Origin: Methylotenera sp.
Lineage (GTDB): Bacteria > Pseudomonadota > Gammaproteobacteria > Burkholderiales > Methylophilaceae
NCBI GenBank assembly: GCA_021732365.1
Contig: JAKFVD010000029.1
Coordinates: 1-64,000, forward strand
DNA: 64,000 nt
Direction: 5' to 3'
Shown: in pieces, positions 68 to 11,006 of the stretch
Numbering within the stretch: the stretch's first letter is position 1
Layout: each line of letters begins with the position of its first letter
Notes under the pieces: model-generated
What the model saw: only the letters and a program-made list of their open reading frames with translations
Told to the model about the DNA's origin: nothing
Database searches by the model: none
Position numbers and translations under genes: made by a program

Positions 68-154
68 TGGATTGCATATCATTTGATGGCACCTCTACTA
101 TTTAACATAATATACATTATACGAAGTAACATGATTATTGAGTAATGCAGAATG

Positions 155-184
155 GAGGGCTTGTAGTCAGAATTACAAGCCCTC
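155..184 (-). terminator. Terminator hairpin after phoA
   Basis: A perfect 11-base stem (GAGGGCTTGTA at 155-165 pairing with 174-184) with an 8-base loop lies 7 bases past the phoA stop codon. There is no strong T-run on the minus side and a weak T-rich stretch on the plus side, so it may serve both converging genes. Confidence 0.6.
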
Positions 185-191
185 TATTGTA

Positions 192-1733
192 TTAGAAACC
201 TAGTGCGTATTTCATTACATAGAAAATATGCGTTTGTTCTTGAACACCTGAAAACAAGTGTGCTTTGGGGCCGCCTGCAAAAATTGCTACATCTTCACCT
301 GCATGCGTGCCAGATTTTAATGGCACATTTGCTTCTTGATGAAAATTTGGGTCTTCAGTGTTAATTTCTTGCAAATTAGCAATACGACCAGATTGTGGAA
401 TCAAATCTTGGTCATCTAAATCATGTTTGTCATCATGGCTGGGATGATAGCCTACGCCGTTTGCGTAGCTTAGTGTGGTGTATGGTTTTTTGTCTTCTGC
501 TTTTGAGGTTGTTTGTTCATCCGCTTTAATGACTTTGCCTAAGATGGGATTACCGCGCGCTGGGTAGCCCGCTATTGTGAATGTGTGGCTGTGGTCTGCA
601 GTGACAATCACTAAAGTGTCCTTTAAATCCACCTTTGCAAGCGTTGCTTTAACTGCATCAGACAATTCAACGGTTTCACTAAGCGCCCTGTAAGCATTAC
701 CTGCATGATGGGCATGATCTATGCGCCCTGCTTCTATCATTAAAAAATAACCTTTTTTGTTCTTAGATAAAATATCAATTGCCATCAAAGACATTTCTTT
801 TAAAGATGGCTCACTAAGCGCGCCTTGCGTTTTATCATGCTGATATTGCATATGGGATGGCTCAAAAAGCCCTAATAAACGGCGCGTTTTTTTAACGTTT
901 ATTGCATCAAACTGCGTTTTATTCCATACATAATCCGCATTAAATTTTTGCTGATATTCGTTAATTAAGTTCCTACCATCTGTGCGCTCGCCTGTTTTAT
1001 TGGTATATTCAGGGTCTATCATGGTGTTAGGCATAAATTTCGTACGGCCGCCACCCAACGCCACTTCAAGCCCATTACCAATACCGCCAGCACCAAAATT
1101 ATCAATCAGCTGTGCTGCAATATCTTTTACTTTAGTGTCTTTGGGTAATTCAGAATCGGTTTCCCAATCTCGGTTTGATGTATGTGCATAAGTAGCTGCA
1201 GGTGTGGCATGCGTAAGCCTTGCAGTAGATACAACGCCTGTAGAAAGGCCTTTTAATTCTGCATGTTCTAAAATAGTGGTTAGTTGTGCAGCCAATAGTT
1301 TTTGAGGATTAGCCTCTTTGCGCTTTATGTCTTGAGAAACTGATAGCAAACCATCATTCGTCTTAACGCCAGTCACCATAGCTGTCATCGTCGGTGCAGA
1401 ATCGGCTGTTTGTTGGTTGGCAGAATACGTTTTAGATAGTGCCACATAGGGCAACTTTTCAAATGCCAGCTGATTGCCCTCGCCATCTACGCCGTTTTGC
1501 TGACCTTCAAAAATTCTAGCTGCTGTAATGGTAGAAATACCCATGCCATCGCCCACAAACAAAATGACATTTTTGGCTGGTTTATTATTGGGGGTAATTT
1601 TTTGGGCTGCTTTAAGTGCCGCTTGGCCTTTTTTAACCCAAGTACTGGCATCTTCAGCCAATGCATATTGTTGTGTTAATAAAACCAATGAAAGATAAGT
1701 GATTAAGTATTTCTTATGGGGTGAATATTGCAA
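192..1733 (-). CDS. phoA: Alkaline phosphatase, secreted
   Basis: Periplasmic or outer-surface phosphomonoesterase of the alkaline phosphatase superfamily. It has an N-terminal signal peptide ending in YALA, metal-site motif FVGDGMG near residue 62, catalytic serine in TADSAPT (about residue 112), the EAGRIDHAHH metal ligands, and TADHSH further on. Length is normal for bacterial PhoA-type enzymes. The longest frame starts at a TTG at 1748. A TTG at 1733 is better placed: AGGA, partly formed by the tonB stop codon TAG, lies 5 bases upstream. The gene is therefore translationally coupled to tonB and is the last gene of a tolQ-tolR-tonB-phoA unit whose promoter carries Pho-box repeats. It probably supplies phosphate released from organic esters. 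Family assignment is very secure; the exact start is not. Confidence 0.9.
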   Translation of the reverse strand: MQYSPHKKYLITYLSLVLLTQQYALAEDASTWVKKGQAALKAAQKITPNNKPAKNVILFVGDGMGISTITAARIFEGQQNGVDGEGNQLAFEKLPYVALSKTYSANQQTADSAPTMTAMVTGVKTNDGLLSVSQDIKRKEANPQKLLAAQLTTILEHAELKGLSTGVVSTARLTHATPAATYAHTSNRDWETDSELPKDTKVKDIAAQLIDNFGAGGIGNGLEVALGGGRTKFMPNTMIDPEYTNKTGERTDGRNLINEYQQKFNADYVWNKTQFDAINVKKTRRLLGLFEPSHMQYQHDKTQGALSEPSLKEMSLMAIDILSKNKKGYFLMIEAGRIDHAHHAGNAYRALSETVELSDAVKATLAKVDLKDTLVIVTADHSHTFTIAGYPARGNPILGKVIKADEQTTSKAEDKKPYTTLSYANGVGYHPSHDDKHDLDDQDLIPQSGRIANLQEINTEDPNFHQEANVPLKSGTHAGEDVAIFAGGPKAHLFSGVQEQTHIFYVMKYALGF

Positions 1734-1740
1734 GATAATC

Positions 1741-2535
1741 CTATTCAATACGGTACTGAAATGTATTTTTTACGTTAGATACTTTAACGGCTTTTCCATC
1801 CACTATGCGTGGCGTATATCTAAAAGTTTTAGTCGCTTCTAATGAGGGTTTAATAAAAAATGCATGGCAGTTGTCCAATGCTTCTGCGCCCTCAACTAAA
1901 CCAGATGTATTAACAGTGTAACGCACTGTGCAAGTGCCTTGCACACCTTTATCTAATGCGCGCGGTGGGTAATTTGGTGCTTCTTTTTGAACTGGAAAAT
2001 ACTGGCTAGTATCAAAATTGGCAACTTGCTGTTGGCTATTATTTGCTGTCTGAGGTTCTGATTTGCTTTCAGTTTTTTTTATATCAGCTTGTTTTATGTC
2101 TGTTTGTTTTGATTCCGTTGGAATTGTGTCTTTTTGCTGTAGTTCTGGTGATAGTTTAGCTTCAACCTCGGCATTAGTCTGAGGTTCTATTACTGCTTCT
2201 TTAACAATCTCTTCAACTCTCTTTTTGGCAAATTGTGCTTCATTAATTTGTTTAACAGGCGGTTCTTTGGTAGGGGGTTTGGTTAATATTGGCTCTGGCA
2301 ATTGCATACTTTCAACAACTGGCTCACTCACAGGCGGCGTAATTGTTTGAGTCATTATTCTCACTTTTATGGTGTTAACTTTGGGTTCTAACGGTTTATC
2401 TTTATCCCAGCTTACCAAAAGCAATGCCACTACAATAATATGCATGAGCACAGCCGCACTCATTGCCACAAATTGGTCTGAGTTAATATGCGCAATCGCT
2501 GGCATTTGTGTTTGCTGAGTTAACACATGACTCAT
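1741..2535 (-). CDS. tonB: Energy transducer TonB
   Basis: Links a proton-driven inner-membrane motor to TonB-dependent outer-membrane receptors. There is one membrane anchor near residues 22-43, a Pro/Glu/Lys-rich periplasmic spacer (about 70-185, including PEPILTKPPTKEPP), and a C-terminal TonB domain from YPPRALDKGVQGTC to the end (about 190-264). The domain contains two Cys (TCTV and DNCHAF) that could form a disulfide. The ATG overlaps the tolR stop by 4 bases (ATGA). The motor genes beside it are TolQ/TolR-like rather than classic ExbB/ExbD, so TolA was considered. The C-terminal domain and proline-rich spacer fit TonB. The neighbouring receptor is the likely client (inference). Confidence 0.85.
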   Translation of the reverse strand: MSHVLTQQTQMPAIAHINSDQFVAMSAAVLMHIIVVALLLVSWDKDKPLEPKVNTIKVRIMTQTITPPVSEPVVESMQLPEPILTKPPTKEPPVKQINEAQFAKKRVEEIVKEAVIEPQTNAEVEAKLSPELQQKDTIPTESKQTDIKQADIKKTESKSEPQTANNSQQQVANFDTSQYFPVQKEAPNYPPRALDKGVQGTCTVRYTVNTSGLVEGAEALDNCHAFFIKPSLEATKTFRYTPRIVDGKAVKVSNVKNTFQYRIE

Positions 2536-2978
2536 TGCGGCTCTTCCGTAATGAGGCCTAAATTGGTGATGCCACCTTTTTGCAAAGCAGCTATGCCAGC
2601 CAGTACTGTGGCGTAATCTGCCGATTTATCTGCGCGAATAAATACTTGTGTATCGCCGCGTGCTGCAATCACTAACTTTACTTTTTGCGTCATTTCATCA
2701 ATATTCACTGCTGTATCAGTTTGCTGCGTTGTATTAACTGTTTCGCCAATATTCCAATAATAAGAGCCATCGCTTTTTACCGATAAAGTTAAAATTTGCA
2801 TTTTAGTGTCAGTAGGCAGCGCCTCACTTTCCACTTTTGGCAACTCTAGCTTTACGCCTTGAACCAACAGCGGCGCAGTCACCATAAAAATCACCAGTAG
2901 CACCAGCATCACATCAATATAAGGCACTACATTCATTTCTGCTTTAGGCGCATGTTGGCTTTGAGGTTTTTGCAACAT
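2532..2978 (-). CDS. tolR: Biopolymer transport protein, TolR/ExbD family
   Basis: Small motor subunit of 148 residues. One membrane helix near residues 18-40 carries the conserved proton-path aspartate (D22, in VVPYIDVMLVLL). A periplasmic domain follows, ending with the family pattern around FIRADKSADYATVLAGI. It works with the TolQ-like pentamer encoded just upstream (16-base gap) and with TonB downstream (4-base overlap). Sequence around the helix is closer to TolR than to ExbD, but the partner is a TonB protein and no tolA, tolB or pal follows. Functionally this is probably an ExbD equivalent. Confidence 0.82.
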   Translation of the reverse strand: MLQKPQSQHAPKAEMNVVPYIDVMLVLLVIFMVTAPLLVQGVKLELPKVESEALPTDTKMQILTLSVKSDGSYYWNIGETVNTTQQTDTAVNIDEMTQKVKLVIAARGDTQVFIRADKSADYATVLAGIAALQKGGITNLGLITEEPQ

Positions 2979-2994
2979 TGTTATCTCCTAAAGC

Positions 2995-3693
2995 TTAAGC
3001 GGCGCGTTTCAATGGCTTATGCAAAGTACGATGTAGCCGCATTTGAAGCTCGTTTCCAAACAAATAATAACGTGAAGTGATTGTGGCGGCGCTTGCACTA
3101 AAGCGGTTGTAGGCAATTACCGCAGGTATAGCCGCAAATAAGCCAATGGCTGTTGCAATGAGTGCTTCTGCAATACCAGGCGCAACAGTAGACAACGTGG
3201 CTTGTTGCACTTGAGATAACCCAATAAACGCATTCATAATGCCCCAAACGGTACCAAATAAACCGATATATGGGCTTACCGAACCCACTGTGGCTAAAAA
3301 TGATAAGCCTTTTTCTAATTGCGCGCCCTCTTCACCAATGGCAACCAGCATTGCGCGCTCAGTGCCCTCTGTTACATGGCTGTTATCACTATTGGATAAT
3401 TGATTCAGTGTTTGAAACTCTTGATAGCCAGCGTTAAAAACACTTTGTAAGCCTGTTGCTGGATTATTTTTACCGGCTTCTAAATACAAATGGTGCAAAT
3501 CATCTGCTTGACGAAAACGTGAGTAAAATTGAGCCATTTCACGCTCCGTACGTGCTAAATTTTTAGCACGTAACACAATTAAGTACCAACTTAATAGCGA
3601 TGCCAATACTAAAATCAGCATGACTGCTTGTACTAGCAAGCTTGCACCTGCTATTAAACTCCAAATTGACATCTCTTCTAAACCGCTTTGCAT
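2995..3693 (-). CDS. tolQ: Motor protein, TolQ/ExbB family
   Basis: Inner-membrane proton channel of 232 residues. Three membrane helices lie near residues 10-40, 130-155 and 170-195. The long conserved block from SPYIGLFGTVWGIMNAF (139-155) through PGIAEALIATAIGLFAAIPA (172-191) is typical of TolQ. The ATG at 3693 has a good GGGAG seven bases upstream, so it was preferred to the internal ATG at codon 8. First gene of the tolQ-tolR-tonB-phoA unit, with its own Pho-box-like promoter. Because the operon ends in tonB and phoA instead of tolA-tolB-pal, it is inferred to energise TonB for phosphorus uptake. Confidence 0.85.
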   Translation of the reverse strand: MQSGLEEMSIWSLIAGASLLVQAVMLILVLASLLSWYLIVLRAKNLARTEREMAQFYSRFRQADDLHHLYLEAGKNNPATGLQSVFNAGYQEFQTLNQLSNSDNSHVTEGTERAMLVAIGEEGAQLEKGLSFLATVGSVSPYIGLFGTVWGIMNAFIGLSQVQQATLSTVAPGIAEALIATAIGLFAAIPAVIAYNRFSASAATITSRYYLFGNELQMRLHRTLHKPLKRAA

Positions 3694-3727
3694 TTTGCTA
3701 CTCCCGCTTTATTCACATTGCTTAACT

Positions 3728-3761
3728 ATTAAATGACATACCCGTGACTTTTTGATGACAA
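3728..3761 (-). promoter_or_regulatory. Pho-box-like promoter of tolQ-tolR-tonB-phoA
   Basis: Minus strand: TTGTCAT-CAAA-AAGTCAC-GGGT-ATGTCAT, three half-sites of the PhoB type (consensus CTGTCAT) with an exact 11-base period (3733-3761). Ten bases after the second half-site lies TTTAAT (3733-3728), 5 of 6 with the -10 consensus. Known Pho promoters place a Pho box about 10 bases before the -10 in place of a -35. The predicted transcript starts about 28 bases before tolQ. PhoB control is inferred from the pattern. Confidence 0.6.
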
Positions 3762-3778
3762 TTGCTTTAAAAGCTTAA

Positions 3779-5761
3779 CTACTGCAGCTTTAAAGCATCG
3801 GCAATTGCTGTCCAAGGTATATATTTGAAATTTTGATTGCCCTCAGGCATGCGTTTGCGGCCATCTTGCACGACCAGCATTCCAAGCCGCCATATGCCTG
3901 TATTGTTGCCGCTTAAATCTAATGCAGTGACTTCAAGCCCATCCGTTTCAGAGGCGCCATCAATACCTAAGTCTGCATTTAAACCAATAGTAAAAGCGCC
4001 ACGCAATTTGTAAGGTGGTAATGCTTCAAGCACCACGTAACTATCATTTCCTTGGCTAGAAACAATCACGTAACTTTGTTTTTTACCTTTGTAGTACGCA
4101 ATACCCTCAATATCAGCATGCACAACGCCACCAGCTGAAACCACTTTAGTGAGTTGTGTTGATGCATCTGCTGCTGCATTAAGTGCCCATACCGCTGCGT
4201 CTTCCTCCCCAACAAAAAGCTGCTCACTTTCATCATCTGCCACACACCCCTCTGGCTGTGTATCCAATTTAAATATGCGCACTTTATTGGCCGTAATTTG
4301 GCTATTTAAAGTGGTTAAGTGGTATTGCTCAAATGTGCCATCTTTATCGTTAACAAAAGCGTAAAACTGGTTTTTCTTATCTTTAAACAGGCAAATACCA
4401 TACATATCTTTGATGGTTGTTGGTTGCTCGCCCAATGCCTGTACTTGGCCGTTATCGCGGTTAATACTAAAAATATGCAAACTATTATTGTCGCGGTTAC
4501 TTGCTACCGCTAAATCAAATAGCGTGCCATTCACATTAAACCCTGGTCGAATATCGACATTATTTAAGCGACCTACAGGCAAATATTGCACTTCTTTACC
4601 AGTTAAGTTGTAAACCGCCAAGCCGCCTTGTTTATCTGTGCCTAACACCAAACTTTTGGTCGCGTCTTTAGGATGCACCCAAATGGCAGGGTCATCAGCC
4701 GCATCTCCCAAGCTTGGCATTAAATCTGTTTGCACGATTGGTTTTACTTGCGGTAACACCACAGGCAAAGCCTTAGACGCAGACCCTTGTTTACTAACAG
4801 TTGCCAATTGAAAGCCAGCATCATCTTTGATTAAAAGTTCTAGGCTAGTTTCGTTTTCGCGCACACTTAAAGCTTCAGGTGCGTCTAGCAAGGCTAAATC
4901 GGTCGATTTCAATATTGAAACATCCTGTTGATTTACCTGATAGTGATGTAAAGATTCAGTTTCACTATCTATCAACAGCACCTGATTATTGATTAACGCC
5001 ATACCAGAAGCATTTTTGGCAATATCGCCAAATGGTTTTAGCATCGCAATGGGTTTGCGAGTTAGCTCTGCTTCCGATTGGGCGGCGTAGGCCCATAGCC
5101 CTACATTTTCTTCGTTAACATATAAAGTATGAGTAGCGTCATCAACTTTGCAAAAACTACTTGCAGGCGGCAAACTTAAACGCCTGACTAACAAAGCCTC
5201 TTTGATTAATGTGGTTTCATGCCCAACCAACCACTGCTCGCCATGCCCCTCTTCACCCACTAAAAATGTAAACACATTGTTAGCGCTATCTTGATACAAG
5301 CAGGCATCTTCAATCTTGAAGTTTGGTTTAGGAACGCTTAATCTGGGGCTCCATTGACCCGTTTTTGCATCCAATTTAACAACTACAGCTTGTTGCAAAT
5401 CTGCGTCTACCGTTGCAACAAGCAAACCATTGGCATTTGCGCGATGATCAACAGTACTAAAATGCCCAGCGTGCTTGCTTAAAACTTCACCTGATTTATT
5501 TAACACTAAAAGGCCATTTTTTTTACTGGCAATAATGGTGTCTGCACCTTGCAAAAAAGCACCATTACTTAAAAGCTGCGCAGCCTCAGCTTTTTGCTTA
5601 AAATTGGCTGGTTTAAAGCTCATATTTTGTGCTGAGGTTATAGCTTGCTGTAAGTTTTTCTGCGGCTGATCTGTTTGGCAACCATTCACCAACAAACTGG
5701 TAAACAGCATTAGCCATACCCATCTACTTTTAATACTGACCAACTTTTTAATTTTTATCAT
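3779..5761 (-). CDS. Lipoprotein beta-propeller phytase with two propeller-like halves
   Basis: Hydrolyses phytate (inositol hexakisphosphate), calcium dependent in this family. The N-terminus is a lipoprotein signal with lipobox LVNGC, so it is anchored to a membrane and probably faces outward. The C-terminal half (about residues 330-660) carries beta-propeller phytase signatures: DAADDPAIWV, TDKQGGLAVY, NNVDIRP, GICLF, DIEGIAYY and GASETDGLEV. The N-terminal half (about 55-320) has similar blade-like repeats (KIEDACLY, LYVNEENVGLWAY) but lacks the DDPAIW and NNVDIRP motifs. It therefore looks like a degenerate second propeller. It lies 75 bases after the TonB-dependent receptor, probably in the same transcript, and just upstream of the tolQ promoter. 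Family call is firm; the N-terminal half's role is unknown. Confidence 0.88.
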   Translation of the reverse strand: MIKIKKLVSIKSRWVWLMLFTSLLVNGCQTDQPQKNLQQAITSAQNMSFKPANFKQKAEAAQLLSNGAFLQGADTIIASKKNGLLVLNKSGEVLSKHAGHFSTVDHRANANGLLVATVDADLQQAVVVKLDAKTGQWSPRLSVPKPNFKIEDACLYQDSANNVFTFLVGEEGHGEQWLVGHETTLIKEALLVRRLSLPPASSFCKVDDATHTLYVNEENVGLWAYAAQSEAELTRKPIAMLKPFGDIAKNASGMALINNQVLLIDSETESLHHYQVNQQDVSILKSTDLALLDAPEALSVRENETSLELLIKDDAGFQLATVSKQGSASKALPVVLPQVKPIVQTDLMPSLGDAADDPAIWVHPKDATKSLVLGTDKQGGLAVYNLTGKEVQYLPVGRLNNVDIRPGFNVNGTLFDLAVASNRDNNSLHIFSINRDNGQVQALGEQPTTIKDMYGICLFKDKKNQFYAFVNDKDGTFEQYHLTTLNSQITANKVRIFKLDTQPEGCVADDESEQLFVGEEDAAVWALNAAADASTQLTKVVSAGGVVHADIEGIAYYKGKKQSYVIVSSQGNDSYVVLEALPPYKLRGAFTIGLNADLGIDGASETDGLEVTALDLSGNNTGIWRLGMLVVQDGRKRMPEGNQNFKYIPWTAIADALKLQ

Positions 5762-5814
5762 TTATATTGCTCTCTGCTTGTAATAACTGCGATTTAATCA
5801 CTAAACTTAACCAT

Positions 5815-5829
5815 AAAAAGTGGTTAAGT
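5815..5829 (-). repeat. Copy 1 of a 15-base 3'-flank repeat
   Basis: AAAAAGTGGTTAAGT on the plus strand, lying in the 75-base gap just after the receptor stop codon. The identical 15-mer occurs at 18916-18930 and 54284-54298, in each case just past the stop of a minus-strand gene. Confidence 0.6.
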
Positions 5830-5836
5830 TTTGGCT

Positions 5837-8440
5837 TTAAAAGTCAGTTAAAGTTAAGCTAACGCGATAAGTAGGGCCGTATTCTTCAAATTGCGCGTTA
5901 AAGCTTTTGCTGTTTTGATAGAAATAAAACTTCTCATCCGTAATGTTTTGCGCTTCAAAAGTTACTTGTACTTTTGGCGTAATAAAATAGCTGGCGCTTA
6001 AATCTACATAAAGCTGTGCGTCAGCATAAATATCATTTTGCGTCGAATCAATTGAGCCTACTTCAGATAAATAGCTAGATTTGTAATTGCCAGATAGCCG
6101 CACGCTAAATTTAGAGTCTTGCCAGCCAACCGTTACGTTACCCACCCTTTTAGATTGGCTTGGCAAAGCAATGTCTCTTGTTAAACCCAAAGATTGAATT
6201 TCTGCATTGGAATCACTAAAAGTCGCATTTGCACCCAAAATAACGCCATTCCAAGGATACGGCAGCCAATCTAGTTTTTGTGAGTAGGCAATTTCAATAC
6301 CATAAACATCCGCTTGATCGCCATTTGCAAAGGTTAACGCTTCATCAAATGCCGCAAATGCGCCAGAACCCGCTACATCGGTGGTGTAAACAAAGTTTTT
6401 AATGTCTTTGTAAAAAGCAAATGCCGAAATCACACCAGCACGGCCAAGATAATGCTCAATGCCAATATCAAAGTTTTTAGATTCTAATGGGTCTAAATTA
6501 GGGTTACCAAACTGCGCCTCATCGCCGTCAATTGCAATGCCTGGTGCAAGTGCTTCAAAAGTAGGTCTGACCACCGAATTGGTGTAAGCCGCTCTAAATT
6601 GCGTTCTATCATTTATTTGATATTTAGCATGTAAACCGGGTAGCAGGTTGTGATAGCTATTGCTTTCTGATACATCACCAAACACGCCATCAATCACGCT
6701 GGTGCCTTTGGCTCTAAATTTAGTGCCTTCGTAGCGTAAACCTGCAATAACACGCCATTTGTCTATATCAATTGTATTCATCACATAGGCCGCGTTAATG
6801 TCTTCACTCATTTCAAAATCGTTAATGCGTGAGTCTTCTTCGCTAAATGCCGCGTTGCTATCTAGCTGGCCAATTATCCCGCTTACCGCGTTTGCACTAA
6901 TACCTTGGCCAAATCTGCCTAAGTTGTAGTCTAAGTTTCTGCTGCTGTATTGGCTTAAACTGACTGGTAATGCGCCAAAATCGTCATAAACAAAAGTGGT
7001 CTGATTATTATCTTTATCGCGACGGCTTAATTTTGCACCAAACTTCACTTGTGCGTCATAACCACTTAAATCATACAAGCGCGCAAAATCCATATTGAAC
7101 GATCTTAGCGTATCGGTCGTGATATTGGCTTCTTGCTCAATTTCACTCAATTCAAATGCGTTGGGGTCGTAATAGTCAGGGTTAATGCTCAATCGTGGTC
7201 GCCTAGTATTAGTAAAACCCGCGTTGCCAAAGTCGTTAACACCTTCAAAAATGGCAGTGCTATTGCCTAATGGGCTGTCTTCACTCGATTTGCTGTAAGA
7301 AAGCTGGCCATTAATTGTCCATAAGCCAATATTTTTTTCACCACCCAATGCGTATGATTTAATTTCTTGCGTTTCTTCACGGGCTCTTAACTCTCTAAAA
7401 CCTTCAGCATCGCCCGTTTCGCCAGTTAGTTGTGCATCTGCAAACTCAACACCTGCTGCATTGCGCTCTTCGGTATCTTTAAAGCGGCTATAAATAGTGC
7501 GTAAATAGTAATTAGATAAATCATCTGGCTTGTAATCAAAATTCAAACCAAAGCCCAAACGGTCACGCTGAATGTCATAATCGCGCATTTCGAACTCGCC
7601 CAAGCGCGGGCCGTTTTCAAAATCCCAAGCGCCGCCTGTTTCAACGTTATCAGAGCCAAACTTTCTTTCTTGGTAACTTAATGCGGCGGCAATACCAAAG
7701 TTATTAACGCCATCGCCAATGCTAAAAATATTACTCACCGCGCCAGACACTTTTGGGCTTGTTTTGTCTACCAATTCGTTGTAACCCGCCTCACCCGAAA
7801 TGGTATAAAAAAGACCTTTATGATCAAAAGCCGATAAGCTGCGTACATTAATTGTGCCGCCCAATGAATTTGCATCTAAATCTGGCGTTAAGGTTTTAAC
7901 AACAGATAATGATTGAATCAGCTCTGATGGCAATACATCCAGTGCTACAGCACGACGGCCAGTTTCTGGCGATGGGATGTTTGCACCGTTAATGTTCACG
8001 CTGTTTAAATCAGGTGCTAAACCGCGAATCGTTACAAAACGGCCTTCGCCTTGGTCGCGTTCAATCGATACGCCTGGAACACGTTGCAATGCTTCTGCTG
8101 CGTTGTCATCAGGTAATTGCCCAATCGCATCGGCATGTACAACACTTTCAATAGAGTCTGAAGCGCGCTGCTCTTTTAATGCTTTATCAATTTGCGCCGC
8201 TTGACCAATCACTTCTAAAAACTCAGTATCGCCAATAGCGCCTAAATTACTAGTACCTGAACCAGCAGTTCCTGAGTTAGCAGGTTTTGAGCTAGGCTTA
8301 CTTGAACTAGACTTAGTAGTGGCTTTATCTTCTTCAGCATCTGCAGCATAACTGAATTGAATACTAGCCATCGCTAGCGCCAGTAAACTCAATTTAAAGC
8401 CCGATTTTATTAATAACGCGCTATCTTTGTACCCATTCAT
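5837..8440 (-). CDS. TonB-dependent outer-membrane receptor (phytase-linked)
   Basis: Outer-membrane beta-barrel importer of 867 residues. Signal peptide ends around SYAADA. A low-complexity Ser/Lys linker (about 40-65) is followed by a likely TonB box (LEVIG). The plug domain (about 75-200) contains IGQLPDDNAAEALQRVPGV and the RGLAPDLNSVNINGA stretch, and the barrel ends in a terminal Phe (SLTLTDF). This plug type belongs to the TonB-Xanth-Caul group, often linked to scavenging of carbohydrates and phosphorylated compounds. Next to a phytase, TonB, and alkaline phosphatase, its cargo is plausibly phytate or inositol phosphates, although iron-phytate or another organophosphate cannot be excluded. 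A Pho-box-like promoter lies about 100 bases upstream. The ATG is preceded by a GGGGATAGG stretch. Confidence 0.88.
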   Translation of the reverse strand: MNGYKDSALLIKSGFKLSLLALAMASIQFSYAADAEEDKATTKSSSSKPSSKPANSGTAGSGTSNLGAIGDTEFLEVIGQAAQIDKALKEQRASDSIESVVHADAIGQLPDDNAAEALQRVPGVSIERDQGEGRFVTIRGLAPDLNSVNINGANIPSPETGRRAVALDVLPSELIQSLSVVKTLTPDLDANSLGGTINVRSLSAFDHKGLFYTISGEAGYNELVDKTSPKVSGAVSNIFSIGDGVNNFGIAAALSYQERKFGSDNVETGGAWDFENGPRLGEFEMRDYDIQRDRLGFGLNFDYKPDDLSNYYLRTIYSRFKDTEERNAAGVEFADAQLTGETGDAEGFRELRAREETQEIKSYALGGEKNIGLWTINGQLSYSKSSEDSPLGNSTAIFEGVNDFGNAGFTNTRRPRLSINPDYYDPNAFELSEIEQEANITTDTLRSFNMDFARLYDLSGYDAQVKFGAKLSRRDKDNNQTTFVYDDFGALPVSLSQYSSRNLDYNLGRFGQGISANAVSGIIGQLDSNAAFSEEDSRINDFEMSEDINAAYVMNTIDIDKWRVIAGLRYEGTKFRAKGTSVIDGVFGDVSESNSYHNLLPGLHAKYQINDRTQFRAAYTNSVVRPTFEALAPGIAIDGDEAQFGNPNLDPLESKNFDIGIEHYLGRAGVISAFAFYKDIKNFVYTTDVAGSGAFAAFDEALTFANGDQADVYGIEIAYSQKLDWLPYPWNGVILGANATFSDSNAEIQSLGLTRDIALPSQSKRVGNVTVGWQDSKFSVRLSGNYKSSYLSEVGSIDSTQNDIYADAQLYVDLSASYFITPKVQVTFEAQNITDEKFYFYQNSKSFNAQFEEYGPTYRVSLTLTDF

Positions 8441-8526
8441 TGCCTATCCCCTAATGATCCCTAAATTTGAACAGCTTAAAAGCCTTAACTAGTTTGTCTG
8501 CATGCATTGCCAGATGAATGAAGCGA

Positions 8527-8560
8527 ATACTAGGGATGCCAAATGTCAGATTTGTGACAA
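8527..8560 (-). promoter_or_regulatory. Pho-box-like promoter of the receptor-phytase unit
   Basis: Minus strand: TTGTCAC-AAAT-CTGACAT (8560-8543), close to the 18-base Pho box CTGTCAT-A[AT]A[AT]-CTGTCAY, including a matching spacer. Exactly ten bases downstream is TAGTAT (8532-8527), 4 of 6 with the -10 consensus. The half-site-to--10 spacing is identical to that at the tolQ promoter. The predicted start leaves a leader of roughly 80 bases before the receptor ATG. Confidence 0.65.
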
Positions 8561-8975: not shown

Positions 8976-9887
8976 GTGCAAAATAAATTAAATTCAGCGT
9001 TTACTATTAAAAGCTGCTTAGCTTTTCTTTCCATTTTTGGCTTGTATTTATATTTAGCCACAGGTGATATTAAAGCTTGGGGCATCATTAAATGGTTAGA
9101 TGTCATCGCAGAGGCTGGTACAACAATATTAGCGTTATTCTGGCTGATTTTATTGTTGCGTAGCCGCCCAGCTGGCCGCGTTACATTACTGCTTTCTTTA
9201 GGGTTATGCTGTTTTGTGTTTTCATGGTGGATGGACTTTTTAGACGAATTTATCAAAATTCCAGCAGATGTTTTTTGGGATAACTGGCTAGAGAGTTTGC
9301 CTATTCCAGCAGGTTTGGTTTTATTAACATTGGGTATTTTTCATTGGCACAAAGAAGAGCTGGCCATTAGTGCACAAATGGCAAAGCGCGAACGCGTATT
9401 TCGCGAACATCGTTTATTTGATGGATTAATTCCTTTGGGCGGAGCAGATTACTTACGCGAACAAGTAAAAATGGCACTTAAAGAGGCAAATTTTCTAAAT
9501 CAACCATTTTCACTAGTAGCTGTAGATTTGAATGATTTTAGCCACATTAATCATACTTATGGTCATCAAGAAGGCGATCAAGTGCTGCAGTCGATTACAC
9601 AACTATTGTTACTTAATTTACGTGAACAAGATTTATTGTGCCGCTTGGCAGGCGATCGATTTGTGGCAGTATTACCTAACACCAGCGTTTCACAAGCCGA
9701 AACAATCGCCAATGAATTAAAACTTGCCATTGAAAATTTAGCTTATAAAACAGCCAAGCAAGGTTTACGCATTCACTTAAAAGCGAGTGCGGCAGTAACG
9801 GCGGGCGTTCAAGAAGATGCCAATAGCTTAATTAAAAAACTCAATACGAATCTAGGCGCTGTAAAAAAACGCCCAGTACTTGTTTAA
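8976..9887 (+). CDS. Membrane protein with a degenerate GGDEF domain
   Basis: 303 residues with a GTG start (AAGAG eight bases upstream). There are about four predicted membrane helices (around residues 12-28, 40-62, 68-88, 106-123), a short coiled linker, then a GGDEF fold (about 148-300) with VAVDLNDFSHINHTYGHQEGD. The signature loop reads AGDRF (225-229) instead of GGDEF: the metal-binding glutamate is replaced by arginine. Cyclic-di-GMP synthesis is therefore doubtful, and a receptor or scaffold role is more likely. The gene faces away from the phosphorus locus across a shared 535-base region and precedes an AraC-type regulator by 84 bases. Three 15-base tandem repeats overlap its stop codon. 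Confidence 0.8.
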   Translation: MQNKLNSAFTIKSCLAFLSIFGLYLYLATGDIKAWGIIKWLDVIAEAGTTILALFWLILLLRSRPAGRVTLLLSLGLCCFVFSWWMDFLDEFIKIPADVFWDNWLESLPIPAGLVLLTLGIFHWHKEELAISAQMAKRERVFREHRLFDGLIPLGGADYLREQVKMALKEANFLNQPFSLVAVDLNDFSHINHTYGHQEGDQVLQSITQLLLLNLREQDLLCRLAGDRFVAVLPNTSVSQAETIANELKLAIENLAYKTAKQGLRIHLKASAAVTAGVQEDANSLIKKLNTNLGAVKKRPVLV

Positions 9888-9924
9888 TAAGTGCTGGTTT
9901 AATAAGCACTTGTTTAATAAGTAC
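9880..9924 (+). repeat. Three tandem 15-base repeats over the GGDEF-like gene stop codon
   Basis: Units TTGTTTAATAAGTGC, TGGTTTAATAAGCAC and TTGTTTAATAAGTAC follow each other without gaps, and a fourth decayed unit may follow to 9939. The first unit contains the stop codon. Each unit carries a TAA in the same place, so the duplications add back-up stops. The GTGC/GCAC and AGTAC/GTACT words can also pair with one another. Confidence 0.75.
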
Positions 9925-9971
9925 TTACTTAATGCATATTTATTTAAATAATTTCTGTTGAAAACCCGCTC

Positions 9972-11006
9972 ATGATCATTAAAAGCGATAGCTACGAGCG
10001 CGATACTAGCTTTATATCTGCACATCATCAGCCAGCCATCGTCATGGATTTAGCTATTTCCCGCGGTGTGGATAGCCATTTGCTATTGCGCGGTACGCAA
10101 TTATTTTTAGATGATATGCTTACTGGGCATAAAAATATTTCCCCTGCCCAATTCATCACCATGCTGAGTAATTGTAACCAGCTACTTAAGGCTGATGACA
10201 CCAGCTTTCTGTTTGGGCAACGTATTTTGCCAGGTTTTTATGGGCCAGCAAGTCAGGTGCTCAATCATTCACTTAACTTACGCCAAGCATTAATCCATTT
10301 ATGTGATTTTCATGCGTTACTAACACCCTTAATGACGCCTCGTTATTTTGAAAATGACAGCCATTTTTTTGTGTATTGGCTAGATAGTTGTGGTGCAGGG
10401 CAACACCGAACTTTATTAGCTGAAGCGTATACGACAGCAGTAGTTGCGATGACAAACTGGCTTTCACAAGAAAAACTGCCATGGCGATTTAATTTTACCC
10501 ATGCGCAGCCACGTTATATTGAACAATACTGGGTAAATTTGAATGAAGATGTTGCATTTAATCAGCAACTAAACATGATGAGCATTCCACTAGAATATCT
10601 CACTAAAGTCTGGCCAAAAAACGCACCTATCGGATTAAAGATGGCCGAACTGGGGAGCAAAATTCAATTAAATGAACTAGGCTTTAAACAGAGTTTTTTA
10701 GACTCTTTGTACGAATATTTAAGACAAAATATTCAACATAATTTGCAATTAGAAAGCGTTGCAGAGGCATTTGGCATGAGCCCTGCCTCATTAAAACGTA
10801 AATTACTCAAGCACAATACACATTTTCAGGAACAGTTAGATTTAGCACGAAAACATGTAGCGCTTTATTTATATCAAATTAAGGGCTTTAAACATAACGA
10901 GGTTGCTGATTATTTACGTTTTAACGATATTAATAACTTTAGAAGAGCGTTCAAGCGTTGGACTGGTTTTCCTCCAGGGCAATTAATGCTGACTAGCTGC
11001 TTTTAA
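9972..11006 (+). CDS. AraC-family transcriptional regulator
   Basis: 344 residues. The N-terminal part (about 20-200) matches the arabinose-binding-like domain found in OruR/AraC-type regulators (ISRGVDSHLLLRGT, FGQRILPGFYGPASQVLNH). The C-terminal part (about 240-340) has two helix-turn-helix motifs: LESVAEAFGMSPASLKRKL and, in the second, NEVADYLRFNDINNFRRAFKRW with the usual G-x-x-P (GFPPGQL). No ligand can be named. There is no obvious Shine-Dalgarno before the ATG, and the short gap to the GGDEF-like gene suggests co-transcription. It is adjacent to the phosphorus locus, but no evidence shows it regulates it. Confidence 0.85.
   Translation: MIIKSDSYERDTSFISAHHQPAIVMDLAISRGVDSHLLLRGTQLFLDDMLTGHKNISPAQFITMLSNCNQLLKADDTSFLFGQRILPGFYGPASQVLNHSLNLRQALIHLCDFHALLTPLMTPRYFENDSHFFVYWLDSCGAGQHRTLLAEAYTTAVVAMTNWLSQEKLPWRFNFTHAQPRYIEQYWVNLNEDVAFNQQLNMMSIPLEYLTKVWPKNAPIGLKMAELGSKIQLNELGFKQSFLDSLYEYLRQNIQHNLQLESVAEAFGMSPASLKRKLLKHNTHFQEQLDLARKHVALYLYQIKGFKHNEVADYLRFNDINNFRRAFKRWTGFPPGQLMLTSCF

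Follow-up and report, generated by a model that had tools for sequence, protein, structure and literature searches.

Genes of the operon

We analysed the first 64 kb (the window) of a 66,980-base contig from Methylotenera sp. (JAKFVD010000029.1; genome of 2.5 Mb in 35 contigs), and focused on a putative phytate-acquisition operon encoding a TonB-dependent receptor, a phytase, a two-protein membrane motor, a TonB protein and an alkaline phosphatase. Six open reading frames on the minus strand span positions 192–8440, and every one exceeds the curated Pfam cut-off in a profile search. The six genes named in an initial annotation, made from the sequence alone, are thus borne out by intact frames and by Pfam and NCBIfam matches above cut-off (Table 1).

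Table 1 Genes, promoter-like sites and terminal repeat of the operon, by window position
Feature	Position	Strand	Supporting matches and remarks
Pho-box-like site, receptor promoter	8543–8559	−	Two units, 11-bp period; one mismatch to TGTCAYN5TGTCAY
TonB-dependent receptor, plug and barrel	5837–8440	−	PF07715, PF00593; TIGR01782, 593.2 bits against a cut-off of 310
Predicted lipoprotein, C-terminal beta-propeller phytase domain and degenerate N-terminal copy	3779–5761	−	PF02333
Tandem triple Pho-box-like site, exbB promoter	3733–3760	−	Three units, 11-bp period
ExbB/TolQ-type motor protein	2995–3693	−	PF01618; TIGR02796 (tolQ), 263.3 bits against 221
ExbD/TolR-type motor protein	2532–2978	−	PF02472; TIGR02801 (tolR), 132.0 bits against 127.3
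TonB	1741–2535	−	PF03544, C-terminal domain, residues 186–262, 45 bits
Alkaline phosphatase, appended gene outside the conserved core	192–1733	−	PF00245, 443 bits
Inverted repeat after the phosphatase stop	151–188	.	15-nt arms, 93% complementary; without T run

The PF02333 match covers only the C-terminal half of the phytase (residues 338–657; 274.9 bits against a cut-off of 21), and this half matches solved Bacillus phytases at 217 bits. Compared with the Bacillus enzyme, 21 of 28 positions are identical, including 13 of the 14 that we take to form the active or metal site (55, 56, 76, 122, 159, 179, 180, 211, 227, 258, 260, 279, 308 and 314); the exception is E180, replaced by Asp, and K77, adjoining the active site, is Gln in the window protein. 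As a putative member of its family, the enzyme would hydrolyse phytate in a calcium-dependent manner. The fold of the C-terminal half recurs in degenerate form in the N-terminal half (hhalign of N-terminal against C-terminal profile, probability 98.8), and a structure model of the protein (pLDDT 85.8) finds 1poo as its best structural match. Cys28 is invariant in 18 of 18 aligned sequences and stands in a lipobox-like setting, followed in the window protein by Gln, which under established sorting rules would favour the outer membrane. The phytase is accordingly predicted to be anchored there, a prediction drawn solely from this 18-sequence alignment; a strict lipobox pattern missed 36 of 74 phytases from the related cassettes described below, perhaps through loose start positions. 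For the beta-propeller phytase of the initial annotation, family and active-site residues are borne out by PF02333 and the Bacillus comparison; its lipoprotein nature is predicted from Cys28.

The receptor carries a TonB-box-like sequence, EFLEVIGQ (consensus of relatives, EHVEVVGQ), and profile searching reported no signalling (STN) domain in it. Its N terminus is longer than in many relatives. Between the receptor and phytase genes lies an imperfect inverted repeat (5784–5850; 30-nt arms, 77% complementary), which possibly affects expression of the genes downstream.

Both motor proteins fall on the Tol side of the family models. The ExbB/TolQ protein scores 168.3 with the exbB model, below its cut-off of 206.2, and passes the tolQ model; the ExbD/TolR protein likewise lies below the NCBIfam ExbD cut-off and above that for tolR. 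The exbB model alone is not decisive, as the other, Ton-type ExbB of the same genome also falls under its cut-off (130.3). In a tree of 23 cassette, 8 TolQ and 7 Ton ExbB proteins, cassette ExbB and TolQ proteins group together with support of 100/100. TolQ rows were named by an adjoining ybgC gene. Of 34 paralogue rows, 16 were kept after removal of 6 copies of cassette proteins and of 12 rows that were fragmentary, long-branched or unassigned. The window protein and proteins from 21 of the 74 cassettes make up the remaining 22 rows. The best tree does not show cassette ExbB proteins as a single clade. Such a clade is not rejected by the AU test (p-AU 0.296) and appears in 11% of bootstrap trees; two TolQ rows drew a long-branch warning. 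The membrane Asp of ExbD, in the motif PYIDV, is present in 74 of 74 cassettes, and the membrane-helix His of TonB is found in the window protein and in all 12 relatives displayed.

The genome holds four TonB_C matches and four MotA/ExbB matches. A further exbB–exbD–tonB set lies on contig C10, so the operon's motor is an additional one, and TolA sits with the genome's other TolQR pair. At the operon the third protein carries a TonB domain, placing TonB where Tol–Pal has TolA and setting the operon apart from that system. By sequence, this is a Ton-like system with a TolQR-type motor, in which TonB replaces TolA.

The alkaline phosphatase is the sole PF00245 match in the genome. Its start is more likely TTG 1733, with AGGA five bases upstream, than TTG 1748; the former requires no overlap with tonB. 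Among solved structures, the protein is nearest to the animal tissue-nonspecific type (up to 370 bits), with E. coli PhoA far less similar (up to 144 bits).

Conserved linkage and Pho boxes

Conserved linkage had been named beforehand as a check on the locus. We scanned public genomes with a phytase alignment and took the best 80 of at least 344 relatives. Receptor, phytase, exbB, exbD and tonB stand together in 74 of these 80 loci, with the other four genes on the same strand as the phytase gene and within 5 kb of it, and gene order is identical in all 74 full cassettes. These cassettes represent 15 named genera and 10 named families, and 59 of them are from Pseudomonadaceae; the operon is present in Pseudomonas and Stutzerimonas species. 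Among the other six loci, three lie at a contig edge (L023, L065 and L087) and three lack the motor (L053, L077 and L088). In L077 a weak ExbB/ExbD pair is found on the opposite strand, at a distance of about 10 kb. The five-gene unit is real and widespread, with strong linkage, and the initial annotation's view that the motor belongs to the operon is supported.

The sixth gene has a narrower distribution. Phytase occurs in 4 of 187 genomes of the window's own family, Methylophilaceae, and all six genes in the same order in two of them, the window's and G096 (locus L108), where the phosphatase occupies the same place. The other two (L109 and L110) have only a receptor–phytase pair, from a different phytase branch and without a motor. 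Three of the 80 loci (L077, L079 and L081) have other copies of PF00245-family phosphatases close to the phytase; in L078 the distance is greater. The six-gene set of the initial annotation thus stands for five genes, the alkaline phosphatase lying outside the core as a gene appended in two Methylophilaceae. In the Acinetobacter cassettes L078, L079 and L081, two alkaline-phosphatase-family open reading frames lie nearby, upstream in one and downstream in two.

In an even, class-wide sample of 369 genomes, 11 carry phytase, the window's genome included. Among the other ten loci, which include one contig-end locus and one fragment, seven have an adjoining receptor and none has a motor, which indicates that the receptor–phytase pair is the wide unit and that the motor marks one phytase branch. 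A quick phytase tree (37 rows, with long-branch warnings) requires four changes in motor presence, at least two of them via starred branches.

The initial annotation had placed Pho-box-like promoters before the receptor gene and the first motor gene, and both sites were recovered. We scored them with TGTCAYN5TGTCAY, which we take to be the Pho-box consensus. At up to one mismatch this pattern has 40 matches genome-wide against 25 for a reversed control pattern, so a lone match is weak. Tandem triples, in which two matches overlap by one 11-bp step, are not weak in this way. The genome has four: one precedes the operon's exbB, and the other three precede phoB, a Porin_O_P gene and a gene for zinc-dependent phospholipase C (Zn_dep_PLPC). 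Exact matches occur at five places, four of which precede genes for polyphosphate kinase 2 (PPK2), phoB, pstS and Porin_O_P. Strong boxes elsewhere in the genome include those at L095 3948–3975, before zinc-dependent phospholipase C, and L096 1524–1540, before polyphosphate kinase 2.

Boxes recur at the same two places among relatives, whose sequences are related, so that the counts are not independent. A first scan covered both strands. It began 300 bp before the receptor gene, or 150 bp before each of the other genes, and ended 45 bp past the estimated start. Upstream of the receptor gene, scores of at least 10 of 12 were found in 65 of 73 relatives (3.9 expected) and a score of 11 in 42 (0.25 expected); upstream of exbB the corresponding counts were 42 of 77 (4.5 expected) and 18 of 77 (0.20 expected). 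In the same scan, boxes preceded bpp in 2 of 77 relatives, exbD in 0 of 76 and tonB in 0 of 75. At a score of at least 10, exbB boxes were on the same strand in 42 cases and on the opposite strand in two; receptor matches were mixed, with 48 of 73 on the same strand and 47 of 73 on the opposite one.

The longer N terminus of the window receptor implies that the estimated starts of many relatives are too far upstream. Once the first result was known, we extended the receptor scan to 120 bp past the estimated start and restricted it to the same strand. This rescan found a box of at least 10 of 12 in 72 of 73 relatives (3.0 expected from shuffles) and of at least 11 in 52 of 73 (0.15 expected). 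The sole relative without a receptor box, L088, is also one without a motor. By genus, 12 of 16 named genera reach 11 and 15 of 16 reach 10. In the ten loci displayed, a start codon lies 22–92 bp past the first base of the box; in most of them a signal-peptide-like sequence follows shortly.

Chance boxes were rejected on the basis of shuffles, a spacing control and 359 permuted half-sites. Across the other eleven spacings (0 to 11), counts were 0–16 of 73 at a score of at least 10 and 0–2 of 73 at 11 or more. Permuted half-sites reached the receptor counts in two cases at 10 or more and in one at 11 or more, all register shifts of the same motif; they reached the exbB counts in none and three cases, respectively, the latter being shifts or near variants as far as shown. 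Predicted Pho control of the operon is well supported by sequence.

GGDEF and AraC-type genes lie upstream of the operon (8976–11006, plus strand). In 13 of 14 other genomes of the genus they lack any DNA match, and the last has only short ones. The operon has a G+C fraction of 0.415 against 0.419 in the rest, and base composition gives no sign of recent transfer. The inverted repeat past the phosphatase gene possibly marks the operon end; it is absent among the terminator-like sites predicted for the window. At 64 bp past the phosphatase stop lies a dif-like site (100–127, minus strand), which we take to resemble the XerCD dif site. At up to three mismatches, the dif pattern matches genome-wide only here and at the start of contig C10, and the two contigs have exactly 127 bp in common, starting with this site. 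With a dif-like site beside it, the operon may be located where replication terminates. Insertion at dif was rejected on finding no dif-like site within a 16-kb slice of the second six-gene genome, and an empty insertion site could not be shown because the genes on either side are not conserved within the genus.

Proposed mechanism and alternatives

Taking the gene content, the linkage and the boxes together, we consider it probable that a PhoB-switched operon of five genes, joined here by the phosphatase, brings phytate, or metal salts of it, into the periplasm for enzymes to free the phosphate there. Low phosphate would activate PhoR and PhoB, both of which are encoded in the genome, and PhoB would bind at the two sites of Table 1, the second of which, from its position, would provide a separate promoter for the motor genes. 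Phytate is near or above the porin size limit. The receptor would bind it and be opened by motor-driven TonB; the phytase, predicted to be anchored in the outer membrane and assumed to face the periplasm, would remove phosphates, the phosphatase would finish lower inositol phosphates, and the Pst transporter, for which pstS is present, would take up the freed phosphate. As to origin, we tentatively suggest that a copy of TolQR, a motor of cell division, was recruited and joined to TonB under phosphate-starvation control to give a phosphorus-specific Ton system driving phytate uptake, and that the five-gene unit then spread through gammaproteobacteria and betaproteobacteria.

Several observations weigh against PhoB-switched phytate import. 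The three relatives and the seven class-wide receptor-linked phytases without a motor suggest that receptor and phytase can function with a different Ton system, and in its own family the six-gene set was found in 2 of 187 genomes. In 35 of 77 relatives the exbB box scores less than 10 of 12, and a box-like site on the opposite strand lies upstream of the receptor gene in 47 of 73, perhaps belonging to a divergent Pho gene. An exoproteomic study of P. stutzeri DSM4166 and P. fluorescens SBW25 gave no evidence that PhoBR controls their phytases, the phoBR mutant of that study having been made in a third strain, BIRD-1 (PMC5082522; here and below, statements from the literature refer to the parts of each text that were searched). 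In Caulobacter the phytase gene is also under a uranium-responsive regulator (review, PMC8963506), the same source reporting poor growth of a phytase mutant on phytate.

The place of cutting separates phytate import from its closest competitor. Phytase on the cell surface could cut phytate outside, leaving the receptor to import lower inositol phosphates with the same motor. Within the set, no two genes are paired as widely as receptor and phytase, SusC/SusD pairs offer a parallel for such pairing, and the signal Cys is invariant in the alignment; active import would be less needed for lower inositol phosphates, and we regard external cutting as doubtful.

It is unlikely that the motor is a general second Ton system that serves all receptors and merely lies beside a receptor–phytase pair. 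The genome does contain twelve other receptor-barrel matches, two of them perhaps pieces of one gene, and pairs without a motor exist; set against this are the constant order in 74 of 80 loci, the Pho box of the motor genes themselves and the other exbB–exbD–tonB set in the genome. We give equally little weight to induction by phytate itself, rather than by low phosphate, through another regulator. Such induction has been proposed for pseudomonads (PMC5082522), and it is opposed by the Pho boxes in the window's genome and across relatives and by the adjoining AraC-type and GGDEF genes, which are not kept even within the genus.

An iron system, in which ferric phytate would be imported and phytase would free the iron by destroying the chelator, is very improbable: phytate chelates iron and most known Ton systems serve iron, but the common boxes upstream of the receptor gene are Pho boxes, and a scan of 73 upstream regions for Fur-box-like sites gave no general excess (7 against 8.65 expected at 12 or more of 19; best window score 11 against a shuffled mean of 11.5), with a slight one at the two highest thresholds with matches (4 of 73 at 13 or more, 2.2 expected; 3 of 73 at 14 or more, 0.3 expected). 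PhoB-switched import of phytate remains the reading we favour.

Relation to known systems

Phytate import by a dedicated motor would bear on a step of phosphorus acquisition whose course, to our knowledge, is not settled, namely the passage of large, highly charged phytate across the bacterial outer membrane. Phytate, in which plants store phosphorus, is put at up to half of organic phosphorus in some soils. If the proposed role is true, a phosphate-controlled motor beside phytase would offer a clear genetic handle on this outer-membrane step.

The initial annotation had held that dedicated TonB motors for phosphorus are little described. This stands for the operon as a whole: titles and abstract openings among the matches listed in open-licence literature describe no phytase operon with its own motor, and the words phytate and inositol are absent from the searched text of a 2024 review of TonB-dependent uptake (PMC11658791). 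It does not stand for the parts, as receptor–phytase pairing, PhoB-controlled receptors and a PhoB-dependent exbB2–exbD2–tonB4 set are already in print. A TonB-dependent receptor lies beside phytase in Citromicrobium (PMC3400609), and the receptor and phytase of Flavobacterium, Fjoh_1367/1368, are both induced by low phosphate (PMC8115612). Both pairs share the adjacency seen here, and the searched text of each mentions no motor genes with the pair. The Caulobacter PhoB regulon includes phytase and several TonB-dependent receptors (PMC11208175); it is alike in having both under PhoB, and the searched text mentions no phytase-linked motor.

A likeness in motor control is seen in the P. aeruginosa exbB2–exbD2–tonB4 set of PUMA3, whose motor and TonB genes are transcribed in a PhoB-dependent manner and which is called uncharacterised in the same sources (PMC7035377, PMC4971064). 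It differs in requiring the sigma factor VreI besides PhoB and in being linked to two-partner secretion genes, not to phytase. Signalling of the PUMA3 type has no counterpart here: no ECF sigma or anti-sigma gene and no receptor signalling domain was reported in the six genes and the next three, the other side being the contig end.

Two further likenesses concern the proteins themselves. Two-domain beta-propeller phytases such as PhyH and PhyS likewise combine a degenerate N-terminal with a full C-terminal propeller, in a different genomic context. The motor resembles TolQ/TolR of Tol–Pal in its tolQ and tolR scores and its grouping with TolQ, but the operon has a receptor and a phytase where Tol–Pal has TolB, Pal and YbgC. 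If the proposed role is true, the operon would pair a Tol-type motor with TonB and assign a Ton-type motor to phosphorus rather than iron.

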